Assembly: GCA_947167455.1 (NCBI GenBank)
Contig: CAMVIB010000007.1
Coordinates: 1 to 64,000, forward strand
DNA: 64,000 nt
Reading direction: 5' to 3'
Origin: an uncultured Prevotellaceae bacterium
GTDB taxonomy: Bacteria; Bacteroidota; Bacteroidia; Bacteroidales; Bacteroidaceae
Shown one piece after another: positions 36,034 through 53,758 of the stretch. The position numbers and the translations under genes are program-made. Within the stretch, counting starts at the first letter, position 1. Each line of letters opens with the position of its first letter. The notes under the pieces were generated by a model that was given only the letters and a program-made list of their open reading frames with translations, searched no databases and was not told the origin of the DNA.

Positions 36034-36370
36034 AAAATAATGACAAAGCTGTGCTTTTTGATGCCTATGGGTCCGAAAAGCATGGTCTGTGTGTGCCTAA
36101 CGTGGGTGGTTACGCAGGCGTCGGCGCTGCTCTTGGCTTTATGCTTCATGCCTGATGATGCACGTAACATCCCCTAGGGGAGTTAGGTAACTCGCCTAGG
36201 GGAGTTAGGTAACTCGCCTAGGGGAGTTAGGTAACTCCCCTAGGGGCTTGTCGCGCCACCTTCATGGGATGTCGCCATCGCGCCAAGGCGGCACCACCTT
36301 GCAATGATGTCGGCAGACGACGTGCATGTGAGTGGGTGGGGGGTATCGGTCTGATGCGATAAAAAAATTT
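36034..36370. other. Intergenic region upstream of the giant gene
   Basis: No gene is supported. It contains the giant gene's upstream promoter flank and the 22-bp tandem palindromic repeat at 36171-36246. The remaining sequence shows nothing I can name. Confidence 0.5.
36171..36246. repeat. Three tandem 22-bp palindromic repeats ending in CCTAGGGG
   Basis: The unit starts CCTAGGGGAGTTAGGT and ends AACTCG (AACTCC in the third copy), at 36173, 36195 and 36217, followed by CCTAGGGG. Each unit is itself nearly palindromic (GAGTTA and TAACTC around GG). The array lies about 170 bases upstream of the giant gene's promoter. Confidence 0.9.
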
Positions 36371-36371
36371 T

Positions 36372-36626
36372 GATTATCCGCAATCATACCACCAAAGAGA
36401 CCGCAACGCGGTCTTCGCTATGGTAACCGAGGGTACGAGCGTAGCGAGCACCCCCGGATAACAAGCTCTATAGAGGCAAGCACTCTGAAAGAGTGCCCGA
36501 ACAGCGTAATGGGCGACCCCTTCAGGGTCGATGTTCCCCTTTTTGTCCCTATCCGGGGGTACTGCGCACCCCCGGTTATTGAGAGGAGACGCTTCCAGCG
36601 TCTTGGTGGTACGATTGCGGATAATC
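36372..36626. mobile_element. MITE-like 255-bp element with 22-bp terminal inverted repeats
   Basis: The left end begins GATTATCCGCAATCATAC. The right end (36605-36626) is its reverse complement with one mismatch over 22 bases. The inside has no credible gene but a chain of hairpins: GACCGC-AAC-GCGGTC, CGACCC-CTTCA-GGGTCG, CCGGGGGT-actgcgc-ACCCCCGG and GACGCT-TCC-AGCGTC. A related end, differing at two positions, occurs at 53097-53118 beside the IS1595-family transposase fragment. No clear target duplication was found; both ends abut A/T tracts. Confidence 0.65.
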
Positions 36627-36628
36627 AT

Positions 36629-36677
36629 TAAAAAATTCGGGGCGAAGCCGCACATGGTGTGCGGGCTTCGCCCCGAA
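36629..36677 (-). terminator. Terminator of the fimbrial operon
   Basis: A long stem TTCGGGGCGAAGCC / GGCTTCGCCCCGAA with an inner GCACA-TGG-TGTGC, followed on the minus strand by TTTTTTAAT. It lies 48 bases past the fimbrillin stop at 36725. The MITE end starts within three bases of its U-tract. Confidence 0.9.
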
Positions 36678-47437: not shown

Positions 47438-50400
47438 ATGAAAAAGACAATACTTGCCCTGAACATACTCTTGGGGCTCGTTAATACCGCTCATGCCGAC
47501 GACTTCTCGTTCCGCCTGCGCAACGCTCTGGCCTTCGGGCGCAATGGCGAGACTGTCACCGTTGCCGTGCCCGGTGGCACAAACCTCGCGGCATCGTCGC
47601 TCACCGACGAGCACGGCACGGTAGTGCCTTTCGAGGCTGTCGGCGACGAGGCAATACGCTTCCGTGCCACAGTCCCCGCCGGAGCCACTGCCGGCTACAC
47701 CCTGCGCAGCGGCACACCCCAGAAGCCCGCCACGGCAACGTATGTCGCCGTGAAGGTGCCGGCATCGCGAGCCGACATAGCATGGGAGAACGACCTGTGT
47801 GCATATCGTATGTACTCGTCAACGCTGTTGCGCAGCGAGCCCAACACGGCACAGGGTGTCGATGTGTGGTTCAAGAAGATGGGCACACCCGTCATCGACG
47901 AGATGTACCAGCTCTCCAACTACCACAACGAGAGCCAGTGGGGCGTAGATGCATATTCTGTCAACGGCAAGAGGCTGGGATGCGGAGGCACGGCAGTGGT
48001 GGAGAACGGGCACCTGACGATGCACGACCCCTACAGCACATGCAACATCACCGAGCAGTCGGCACTGCACTCGGCATTCACCCTTACTTATAATAATGTT
48101 CGCGCGGGAGGGCAGAACTATGTCAAGACCCTGAAGGTGGAGACGACGGCGGGAGCCGTACTCAACCGCGCCACGCTGCGTATGGAGGGTAGCGACGGCA
48201 CATTGCGCCTGGCCATAGGCATATACCAGCATACTGACATGTCACACCAGCCGCAGGGCGTGGCATACACCGATGAGGCCGGAGTCGTGGGATGGGCAGA
48301 GACGAAGAGCGAAGGCAGCGTCACCAGCGCGGGAGCACGTTTCTATCAGGGTGCCTACGTCCCCGCCGAATATCACCCCACGACACAGGTCATCGACAAC
48401 CACCTGTGCCTCGTGGTGGACTACACCGTGGGCACAGACCTCACCTTCTACTTCGGCGGCGGATGGAGCATCTTCCCCGCAGGCTTATGGGGCAGCGACG
48501 ATGCATGGTTCGACGCACTGGCACAGTTCAAGCAGTGCGAGCAGGCACCACTCGTGGCCACCTCGGCAACGACACTCCCCTCGCAGGGCGATGTCATAGA
48601 CATCATACACCTCGTCAACCAGACATGGCAGACTCTGCACCCGACGCATGGCGACTACTTCTGGAACCGGGCTGTGTATCATATCGGCAATATGGCCGCA
48701 TACGATGTCACGGCAGATGCCACCTTCAAGGACTTCTCTACAGCATGGGCAGAGAAGAGCAACTGGTGGGGCGCCACGGGCAAGGACAAGAGCCGATGGA
48801 AATACACACCCTACGGCGAGGGTGCCGACTTCGTGCTCTTCGGCGACAACCAGGTGTGCTTCCAGGTGTATATAGACCTCTTCAACCTCGACCCCGCACA
48901 CGACCAGAAGAAGATAGAGCGTGCGCTGGAGGTGATGGGCCATGAGATCTCGACGTCCAACAACGACTACCTGTGGTGGGTGGACGGACTGTTCATGGTG
49001 ATGCCCATCATGACGAAGCTCTACAAAGTCACTGGCAATCAGGCATATCTCGACAAGATGTACAAGTACTGGCAGTATGCCAACTCCATCATGTATGACA
49101 CGGAGACGGGGCTCTACTTCCGAGATGCCAAGTACGTATATCCTGCCCACAAGACCAACTCTGGCAAGAAGGACTTCTGGGCACGTGGCGACGGGTGGAT
49201 CTTCGCTGCCTTCGCCAAGGTGCTTGCCGACCTGCCCGCCACCGACGCACATCGCCAGGAGTACGTCACCTACTACCAACGTATGGCGGTAGCCCTGAAG
49301 CAATGCCAGCAGGCAGAGGGCTACTGGACACGCTCGCTGCTCGACCCGGCACAGGCTCCGGGACGCGAGACGAGCGGCACGGCACTCTTCGCCTACGGAT
49401 ATGCATGGGGCATCAACAACGGCATACTCTCTGAGATGGAGTACGGCGCCACACTCGAACGCGCGTGGAAGTATCTCTCCACCACAGCCCTGCAGGCCGA
49501 CGGCACGGTGGGCTACATACAGCCCATCGGCGAGAATGCCAGCCCCAACACCACCGTCAAGGCTACCGACTATCATGACTTCGGCGTCGGAGCATATCTG
49601 CTGGCAGCATCGGAGGTGAGCAGATATGCCGTGCGCGGCGGAGACCTTCCCAAGCTGCGCCTCTCGGGCGTGACCCTCGACAACAAGTCGCAGATCACGG
49701 TACGCTTCAACCTTCAGCCCAATGCCTCGGAGGCAAGGCAGGAATACTGCTACCTCATCGACGGCACGCCGGTGGAGGCTGAGGAGATCTCCGTGCAGCA
49801 GGACAACAGCGTCATCATCACCCTGGCCGACTCGCTCGACTACGGGCGCTACACGTTCAGCGTCACATCCTTGCACAGCGCCGAAGGGGGCGTGCTGGCG
49901 CAGAACCAGGAGCGCGTCATCATGCGCACGGTGCCTCTCGACGCTCCGCATACGGGAATCACCATCACCGCCATAGGCTCGCAGACGGGAAATCCGCATG
50001 GCAACGTCAACGACGGCAAGCTGAGCACACGATGGAGCCAGGAGGGCAACAACCAGTGGATACGCTTCGACCTTAAGACTCCGAAGCTCGTCTATGCTGT
50101 TGACGTGGCCTTCTACAACGGCGACTCGCGCGTGTTCTACTTCAAGGTGCAGACTTCCGACAACGGCATAACATGGACGGATGCCACGGGCGACCTCGTC
50201 TCCTCGGGCACCACCAACGAGCTCGAACGCTACCGCCTGCCTGAGGCCGTGACATGTCGCTATGTGCGCCTGCAGTGCAGCGGCAACTCCACCAACAAGT
50301 GGAACAGCCCGACAGAGATACGCATCCGCTACACCTCACCCGTGGGCATCGACAGCGCAGACGAGGTGACAGACAGACCGACATCCGACGACGCCATCTA

Positions 50401-50500
50401 TGACCTCAACGGACGTTTCCTCGGCAGAGGAGCCGATGCTCTGAACTCATTGCCGCGCGGCATATATGTCGTGGGCGGACGTAAGGTGACACGCAGGTAG
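47438..50500 (+). CDS. Secreted multidomain hydrolase: DUF4861 + GH105/GH88-type + F5/8 C domain + C-terminal sorting tail
   Basis: 1,020 residues. Signal MKKTILALNILLGLVNTAHA. About 25-370: DUF4861-like beta domain (AWENDLCAYRMYSS, VDVWFKKMGTPVID, LYFRD follows later). About 380-730: alpha/alpha barrel of unsaturated rhamnogalacturonyl hydrolases, with WWVDGLFMVMP near 513, ARGDGWIFAAFAKVL near 582 and GTALFAYGYAWGI near 647. About 850-960: discoidin/F5-8 type C fold (WIRFDLKTPKLVYAVDVAFY, CRYVRLQC). The end, IYDLNGRFLG to LPRGIYVVGGRKVTR, resembles the giant protein's C-terminus. It would remove unsaturated uronic residues from pectin-type fragments outside the cell (family knowledge). No SusCD partner is in view. 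Confidence 0.87.
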   Translation: MKKTILALNILLGLVNTAHADDFSFRLRNALAFGRNGETVTVAVPGGTNLAASSLTDEHGTVVPFEAVGDEAIRFRATVPAGATAGYTLRSGTPQKPATATYVAVKVPASRADIAWENDLCAYRMYSSTLLRSEPNTAQGVDVWFKKMGTPVIDEMYQLSNYHNESQWGVDAYSVNGKRLGCGGTAVVENGHLTMHDPYSTCNITEQSALHSAFTLTYNNVRAGGQNYVKTLKVETTAGAVLNRATLRMEGSDGTLRLAIGIYQHTDMSHQPQGVAYTDEAGVVGWAETKSEGSVTSAGARFYQGAYVPAEYHPTTQVIDNHLCLVVDYTVGTDLTFYFGGGWSIFPAGLWGSDDAWFDALAQFKQCEQAPLVATSATTLPSQGDVIDIIHLVNQTWQTLHPTHGDYFWNRAVYHIGNMAAYDVTADATFKDFSTAWAEKSNWWGATGKDKSRWKYTPYGEGADFVLFGDNQVCFQVYIDLFNLDPAHDQKKIERALEVMGHEISTSNNDYLWWVDGLFMVMPIMTKLYKVTGNQAYLDKMYKYWQYANSIMYDTETGLYFRDAKYVYPAHKTNSGKKDFWARGDGWIFAAFAKVLADLPATDAHRQEYVTYYQRMAVALKQCQQAEGYWTRSLLDPAQAPGRETSGTALFAYGYAWGINNGILSEMEYGATLERAWKYLSTTALQADGTVGYIQPIGENASPNTTVKATDYHDFGVGAYLLAASEVSRYAVRGGDLPKLRLSGVTLDNKSQITVRFNLQPNASEARQEYCYLIDGTPVEAEEISVQQDNSVIITLADSLDYGRYTFSVTSLHSAEGGVLAQNQERVIMRTVPLDAPHTGITITAIGSQTGNPHGNVNDGKLSTRWSQEGNNQWIRFDLKTPKLVYAVDVAFYNGDSRVFYFKVQTSDNGITWTDATGDLVSSGTTNELERYRLPEAVTCRYVRLQCSGNSTNKWNSPTEIRIRYTSPVGIDSADEVTDRPTSDDAIYDLNGRFLGRGADALNSLPRGIYVVGGRKVTRR

Positions 50501-50532
50501 GCGCACAGCGCTCGACTTAATCTGAATTAGTA

Positions 50533-52973: not shown

Positions 52974-53096
52974 CATCTTTTTTCCGAGACAATAATCTTT
53001 TATGGTCAGCAATTAACATTCTTTCGCATCACGACGTACCAATTATTATCATTTTGGGGGACAAACACATCACGAAACCTCACAAAAAATCTTTAT

Positions 53097-53720
53097 GATT
53101 ATCCGCCATCGTACCGCCAAATTTTCGTGCAGTGCTATGGGTCTGCCCAACTTCTAGCACACATATATTAATATAATAGGTAAAACATTTGGAGAATGGA
53201 ATCAAAATGATTGCCTTTGCGGCGCATTTGTAACAATAGTACACCATGAAGTTATTTGATTTTAACAAGTATTTCCCCGACGAAACGGCTTGCCGCAAGG
53301 TATTTAAGGAAATGAGGGACCGCGAGGGTGTGACGTGTCAGCACTGCGGTTCTCACGATGTGGTATGGCTGGAGAGCAAGCAGCAGTATCAGTGCAAGCA
53401 TTGTCGCCACCGCACGACGCTCCGAAGCGGCACGGTGATGCACGGCTCCAAGTTACCATTCATGTATTGGTTCATCGCTATGCACCTGCTGACGGCTACG
53501 AAGAAGAGTATATCGGCAGCGGAGCTTCAGCGGCAATTAGGGCACAAGCGGTATCAGCCAATCTGGGAAATGATGCACAAGTTGCGCTCGGTGATGGGCA
53601 AGCGCGATGACAAATATACACTTAAAGGCAACATTGAACTGGACGAAGGTTTCTTTTCCACTGAAACGCCGGACGCTCAGAAACAAGAGAAGCTGAAGGC
53701 CGGAGCAGGCAGCCAGAAGA
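53097..53720 (+). mobile_element. IS1595-family insertion sequence, truncated at 3' end
   Basis: The left boundary is set by a 22-base end starting GATTATCCGCCATCGTAC, which matches the MITE ends at 36372 and 36605 at all but two or three positions. The transposase frame (53246) follows after 150 bases and breaks off near 53720, where the sequence becomes the antisense of a neighbouring gene. No right end was found, so the element cannot move by itself. Confidence 0.65.
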
Positions 53721-53758
53721 ATATCTTTCGTTTGATCCAACCTTTCAACCGATTGTAG
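53246..53758 (+). pseudogene. IS1595-family (ISXO2-like) transposase fragment
   Basis: 170 residues where about 300 are expected. The N-terminal zinc ribbon is complete: CQHCGSHDVVWLESKQQYQC and CKHCRHRTTLRSGT. Then KLPFMYWFIAMHLLTATKKS and the first catalytic acidic residue in GNIELDEGFFSTETPDAQK. Family-like sequence ends at KAGAGSQKN (about 53720). The remaining IFRLIQPFNRL is read from the opposite strand of the adjacent membrane-protein gene. The rest of the DDE domain is missing, so it is inactive. Confidence 0.88.

Follow-up and report, generated by a model that had tools for sequence, protein, structure and literature searches.

A MITE with IS1595-type ends and a probable REP-like core in a rumen Prevotellaceae bacterium

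We describe a repeated 260-bp element in the genome of an uncultured Prevotellaceae bacterium of the rumen, which we interpret as a chimeric MITE: ends of the IS1595 type would enclose a REP-like core of two inverted hairpin units (U-U'), and the whole would be moved in trans by the IS1595 transposase. Judging from the comparison of sequences, we give this reading a probability of roughly 0.8. The element appears to combine two mobile systems that are unrelated to each other, because its IS1595 ends enclose a hairpin unit that is linked in other genomes to genes of the single-strand-cutting transposase TnpA_Y1. As we picture its history, the ends would be those of a Bacteroidales IS1595-family transposon with a 316-aa zinc-ribbon DDE transposase, and the U-U' doublets would be products or substrates, present or past, of the HUH enzyme TnpA_Y1. 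IS ends may have come to enclose such doublets several times, and in this genome the IS1595 transposase would have amplified one chimera into A/T-rich sites with an 8-9 bp duplication.

Structure of the element

The window is the whole stretch of DNA that was analysed, 64,000 nucleotides at the start of contig CAMVIB010000007.1; its genome is a MAG of 2.5 Mb in 68 contigs, 77% complete. With its outer AT, the element spans 36370-36629. Its parts, and the related features elsewhere in the window, are:

36362-36369, no strand: target-site duplication, left copy (AAAAAATT); same 8-mer at the other end
36370-36395, plus strand: left terminal inverted repeat TTGATTATCCGCAATCATACCACCAA (family consensus ATGATTATCCGCAATCRTACCACCAA), matching the intact IS1595 ends of L099, L100 and L149
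36397-36521, plus strand: unit U; match to covariance model R1, 88 bits, E 1.1e-18
36399-36413, 36427-36457 and 36480-36496, plus strand: hairpins 1, 2 and 3 of U in order, with a linker between 1 and 2
36489-36604, minus strand: unit U', inverted; R1 match of 111.8 bits (L001 1622-1737 minus, converted to window coordinates)
36514-36530, 36553-36575 and 36588-36602: hairpins 3', 2' and 1' of U'
36603-36629, minus strand: right terminal inverted repeat, terminating in TTGGTGGTACGATTGCGGATAATCAT, from the inverted-end and end-motif searches
36630-36637, no strand: target-site duplication, right copy (AAAAAATT), doubling as the T-tract of the minus-strand terminator 36636-36677
53095-53120, plus strand: left end of a decayed element of the IS1595 family, differing from the right end of the MITE at two positions
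53246-53758, plus strand: 3'-truncated IS1595 transposase gene (PF12760), with 97-99% identity to the N-terminal half of the intact transposases of L099, L100 and L101

A preliminary description of this DNA had reported 22-bp terminal inverted repeats with one mismatch; these are real and extend to 25 nt (36371-36395 and 36603-36627), still with a single mismatch (96% complementary). The window has three matches to the end motif (36372, 36608 and 53097), where shuffles predict 0.04, and the copy at 53097 differs from the right end of the MITE at two positions, as had been claimed. The identical 8-mers AAAAAATT border the element on both sides, and the terminator that one end was said to abut is indeed present at this copy, as a minus-strand hairpin at 36636-36677. 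Just left of the element, at 36168-36250, lies a tandem palindromic repeat, CTAGGGGAGTTAGGTAACTCGC; another genome (G127, L287) has an array of similar type, CCTAGGGG/TTAGGGGAG, next to a U unit.

There is no gene inside the element. Where the preliminary description had seen a chain of at least four hairpins we found six stem-loops, whose fold far beats shuffled sequence on both strands (z = -9.7 and -11.9, one per strand), and an Rfam search of the element gave no family at a meaningful score. The interior consists of two inverted copies of a three-hairpin unit of about 115 nt, the R1 matches for U and U' overlapping at the element centre. Within U the order is hairpin 1 (GACGCTGAAAGCGTC type), linker TCNCTCARTAACCG, hairpin 2, spacer and hairpin 3 (GCACYCTGAAAGRGTGC type).

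An IS1595 transposon as the mobiliser

The fragment at 53246 is a piece of an IS1595 zinc-ribbon transposase (PF12760, E 6.5e-8), which covers about 160 of 316 residues before unrelated sequence begins and is truncated ahead of a complete catalytic domain. It is the sole copy in the window's own MAG, where (at 77% completeness) we found no intact IS1595 element; high-copy elements are frequently missing from MAGs. An intact 316-aa transposase, 97-99% identical to the remnant over the part that the latter covers, is present in other rumen Prevotella genomes, with a zinc ribbon (PF12760, E 1.6e-7), the DDE_Tnp_IS1595 domain (PF12762, E 1e-17) and a match to the NCBIfam IS1595 model (NF033547, E 2e-57). 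We looked for a complete IS1595 relative with ends unlike those of the MITE and found the opposite: full copies with both ends (L099, L100 and L149), exactly those of the MITE, identical or near-identical ends being carried by L099, L100, L149 and G060. The two 2.3-kb elements L099 and L100 are moreover flanked by 8-bp duplications. Shorter and more distantly related ISs (about 1.05-1.09 kb), which come from Proteiniphilum, Phocaeicola and other Bacteroidales, have the same outer ATGATTATCCGC and A/T-rich duplications.

The mobiliser inference is well supported because the ends of the intact IS1595 elements are identical and the transposase that they encode shares 97-99% identity with the 53246 remnant. 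The preliminary suggestion of a non-autonomous element mobilised by this family is upheld by these two points together with the target duplications, and the comparisons strongly support the view that the MITE copies in this MAG were spread by the IS1595 transposase in trans. Known members of the family have 8-bp duplications, a zinc finger and a DDE domain (PMC8101967). Inverted ends and 8-9 bp duplications are common to the MITE and the family (ISPna2, IS1016 and other groups), some elements of which carry passenger genes, but the MITE itself has no gene and its interior is not from the IS. The autonomous transposons (L099 2352-4658, L100 2348-4665, L102, L104, L109, L112 and L149) have a fixed layout of transposase, exchangeable passenger and a conserved right-end ORF of 72-74 aa whose family is unassigned; the passengers are a KilA-N protein, a DinD/Bro-N protein, a Fic protein or small unknown proteins.

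Copies across the genome and target choice

A BLAST search found about 40 copies of the element in the MAG, mostly at 95-100% identity. The 22-bp end, for which the genome was also searched, occurs 105 times, with no occurrence of the reversed-pattern control, and the copies therefore represent roughly 50 insertions. The expected 8-bp target duplications were found, as direct duplications of 8-9 bp (8-10 bp with some edge freedom), at 20 of the 27 full copies with both flanks, while mismatched (shuffled) flank pairs matched at about 1%; the other 7 had no clear duplication. Own-genome full copies lacking a clear duplication include L008, L011, L012, L018, L020 and L028, which may have arisen when one copy recombined with another, giving an inversion or a deletion, or else through mis-assembly. 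Target duplications of 8-9 bp are present also in G018, G020, G087, G127 and G129.

Insertion flanks have W at the outermost target positions and an A/T-rich middle, which bears out the earlier hint at a preference for A/T tracts. Adjacency to terminators did not hold up as a general preference. Hairpins of -10 kcal/mol or below were found at 16% of flanks versus 9% of A/T-matched intergenic control sites (rank test p = 0.18), and a stricter terminator detector was positive at 3 of 20 insertions. At least 20 contig ends of the MAG stop a few bases inside the element, which makes it a major reason why assemblies of these rumen genomes break. These contig-end copies were also considered as hiding places of an autonomous IS; all those read continue into the MITE interior.

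The core unit lies beside TnpA_Y1 genes

The preliminary description was right about hairpins without a gene, but it missed the foreign (non-IS) origin of the interior and its sharing with TnpA_Y1 loci. G018 and G020 each have a Y1_Tnp gene with U on one side and U' on the other. TnpA_Y1 genes of this kind encode RAYT-like HUH proteins. A TnpA_Y1 gene was detected in 26 of the 139 genomes of the genus search, and 20 of the 29 U hits at TnpA_Y1 loci are no more than 160 nt away from an end of the gene, a zone that makes up 9.5% of the sequence (p = 1.5e-14). All but one of these 20 gene-proximal units point hairpin 3 toward the gene, on either side of it. Inverted U on both sides of the gene is seen in G018, G020, G027, G111, G113 and G121 and, in other genera, in G260 and G156, with the arrangement present in part in G275 and G372. 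The locus in G111 (L328/L187; contig C18 around 50150-50530) is decayed, the last 62 residues of TnpA_Y1 still standing between U and U'. Within the window's own MAG (77% complete) we found neither a TnpA_Y1 gene nor a U/TnpA_Y1 arrangement.

The layout of the MITE core is that of the TnpA_Y1 locus minus the gene. Since copies of U border TnpA_Y1 genes in other, related genomes, the core looks like the REP doublet of such a locus without its gene; a REP-like origin of the core is thus probable, and TnpA_Y1 presumably acts, or acted, on U. The YxxxQxxHH motif, the signature of subclass 1.2, is present in 28 of 28 TnpA_Y1 ORFs read, placing the U-flanked genes there and not in TnpA_REP class 2. 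Subclass 1.2 was described as close to IS200 transposases and generally without terminal structures, and is tabulated without REPs (Quentin et al. 2018, PMC6006769).

These observations have to be weighed against the idea that U is a structured sequence of the host or of the MITE itself, into which TnpA_Y1 genes merely inserted, so that U would be target and not substrate. At the G020 locus (L292/L317) an IS1595-type end directly abuts the outer U on one side (the other side has a degenerate TTGGT only), and a gene that landed inside a MITE-like array is imaginable. However, TnpA_Y1 genes down to 28% identity keep U with the same inward orientation, most TnpA_Y1-flanking units have no MITE ends, the U subtype in G027 fits the locus, and inverted U on both sides of a gene is not what insertion into a single U should leave. 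We therefore regard this alternative as unlikely, though it fares better than those considered below.

The stems of U covary

Searches with the covariance model found U, often as tens of copies, in 28 of the 139 genus genomes and in 9 of the 30 genera of a family sample. In a plain MAFFT alignment of 20 divergent sequences, 92% of cells pair and 58 are compensatory, whereas sliding the partner lowers pairing to about 40% and leaves at most 10 compensatory cells. Among 149 matches, in an alignment fitted to the covariance model, 95% of cells are paired and 574 are compensatory, compared to at most 49 in slid controls. Since the stems covary, selection acts on the structure of U, either in RNA or in DNA that is single-stranded or forms a cruciform.

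An element maintained for its role as a regulatory RNA or terminator cassette, with mobility a side issue, could also show covarying stems and stable folding of both strands, and 18 of the 23 classifiable copies do lie between predicted genes (on crude gene calls). Yet DNA hairpins read by an HUH protein would covary just as well, the near-identity of the copies and their target duplications mark a recent burst, and no Rfam family matches. A cassette of this kind is in our judgement improbable.

Ends and cores occur in several combinations

U-U' cores are found within several types of ends: CTGTRCGGTTGAA ends in G022, G023 and probably G369, TAATATAGNAGTTGGCACAAA ends in G107, and AACTNAASTTTCCCACC ends in G217 (with one such end in G035). 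Others, in G160, G185 and G047, have no recognisable inverted repeat. In G369, nearly identical U units bear IS1595-type and CTGTRCGGTTGAA-type ends within one genome, and in G023 units with these two kinds of ends are nearest neighbours on the U tree. On that tree (115 columns, few firm branches), the IS1595 label changes at least 8 times on firm branches. In G027 the IS1595 ends surround a local U subtype that is closest to the array of U units at this genome's own TnpA_Y1 locus. It would seem from these patterns that IS ends enclosed U-U' cores several times independently.

No transposase for the CTGTRCGGTTGAA ends was found beside the single copies where it was sought, and an inverted repeat in G089 (L275), first taken as a further family of ends, proved to be a self-palindrome and was left out of the count. 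The end-less U-U' pairs of G160 and G185 (L365-L368, L373 and L374) have asymmetric but recurring borders, ...ATTCGGA on one side and ...TTA or ACCA on the other, which might be traces left where TnpA_Y1 itself inserted them. Hairpin cores of other kinds too are bounded by IS1595 ends: L205 (G131) and L209 (G112) hold a different hairpin chain (AGCCCAAAGGGCT, CAGGGGTAAAACCCCTG), which suggests that another palindrome family was captured by these ends. Elements of 67-69 bp consist of two IS1595-type ends around one hairpin 1 (L072, G000 contig C12 61753-61815; L193, G034).

Most known MITEs are usually explained as internal-deletion derivatives of a transposon, and the ends and duplications shared with the IS1595 transposon would fit an ordinary MITE of this origin, with an incidental interior and no link to another mobile system. 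Against this, the MITE and L099 have only their ends in common, the interior showing no similarity to that of the IS; the core occurs also without IS1595 ends and beside TnpA_Y1 genes; and it covaries strongly. This origin is accordingly more improbable still. That TnpA_Y1 and not the IS1595 transposase spread the copies in this genome, as the TnpA_Y1-linked core might suggest, can be dismissed almost entirely, as the borders of full copies coincide with the IS1595 ends and are flanked by 8-9 bp duplications, a mark that the single-strand HUH transposition typical of IS200/IS605 does not leave, and the MAG yielded no TnpA_Y1 gene.

Beyond the chimeric MITE itself, we lean slightly towards a broader view, in which subclass 1.2 TnpA_Y1 genes have large three-hairpin REP-like units of their own (U), and U-U' has, throughout the family, repeatedly become enclosed by the ends of unrelated DDE elements (the IS1595 type and at least two or three others). 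Ends and cores would then be exchangeable, and two unrelated chemistries of transposition could mobilise such elements.

Relation to known repeats and significance

Like U, the REP, BIME and REPIN repeats that accompany RAYT genes (REPtrons) form inverted palindromic pairs in high copy and stand on both sides of a TnpA_Y1 gene. A REP, however, is a 20-40 nt palindrome with a GTAG foot, whereas U has three hairpins in about 115 nt, and no conserved GTAG precedes its hairpin 1. The systems differ further in that the U-linked gene belongs to subclass 1.2, for which the published list gives no REPs (PMC6006769), and in that many U copies lie inside MITE ends. The GTAG/CGTC palindromic repeats and TIRtrons (PMC3733652) resemble U as short palindromes in dimers, some with TnpA_Y1 genes. 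CGTC repeats were reported in Bacteroidetes without a dedicated transposase (PMC3733652); U is a longer, modular unit that does have a linked transposase gene. The closest parallel on the MITE side is BrickBuilt of Porphyromonas gingivalis, likewise a Bacteroidales MITE with IS-type ends and a trapped unrelated repeat, intergenic and with long stem-loops (PMC4596501). In BrickBuilt the ends are similar to those of ISPg1/ISPg9 (IS5 family) and the trapped repeat forms a 23-nt tandem array (PMC4596501), in contrast to the IS1595 ends and TnpA_Y1-linked inverted pair of the present element.

MITEs with IS ends, a MITE that trapped a repeat (BrickBuilt) and REPs with TnpA_REP genes (PMC3733652, PMC3116915) were thus already known. 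In the open-access literature, outside which most subscription papers lie, we came across neither a REP-like unit described for subclass 1.2 nor any such units enclosed by MITE ends. The comparisons presented here would assign a repeat unit to TnpA_Y1 subclass 1.2, formerly listed without one. MITEs and REPs are usually held to be separate classes with unrelated enzymes; the U-U' core turns up in either setting, across several genera and even within a single genome. This shared core offers a direct way to ask how REP-like repeats outspread their own transposase, and it also bears on where the interiors of MITEs come from.
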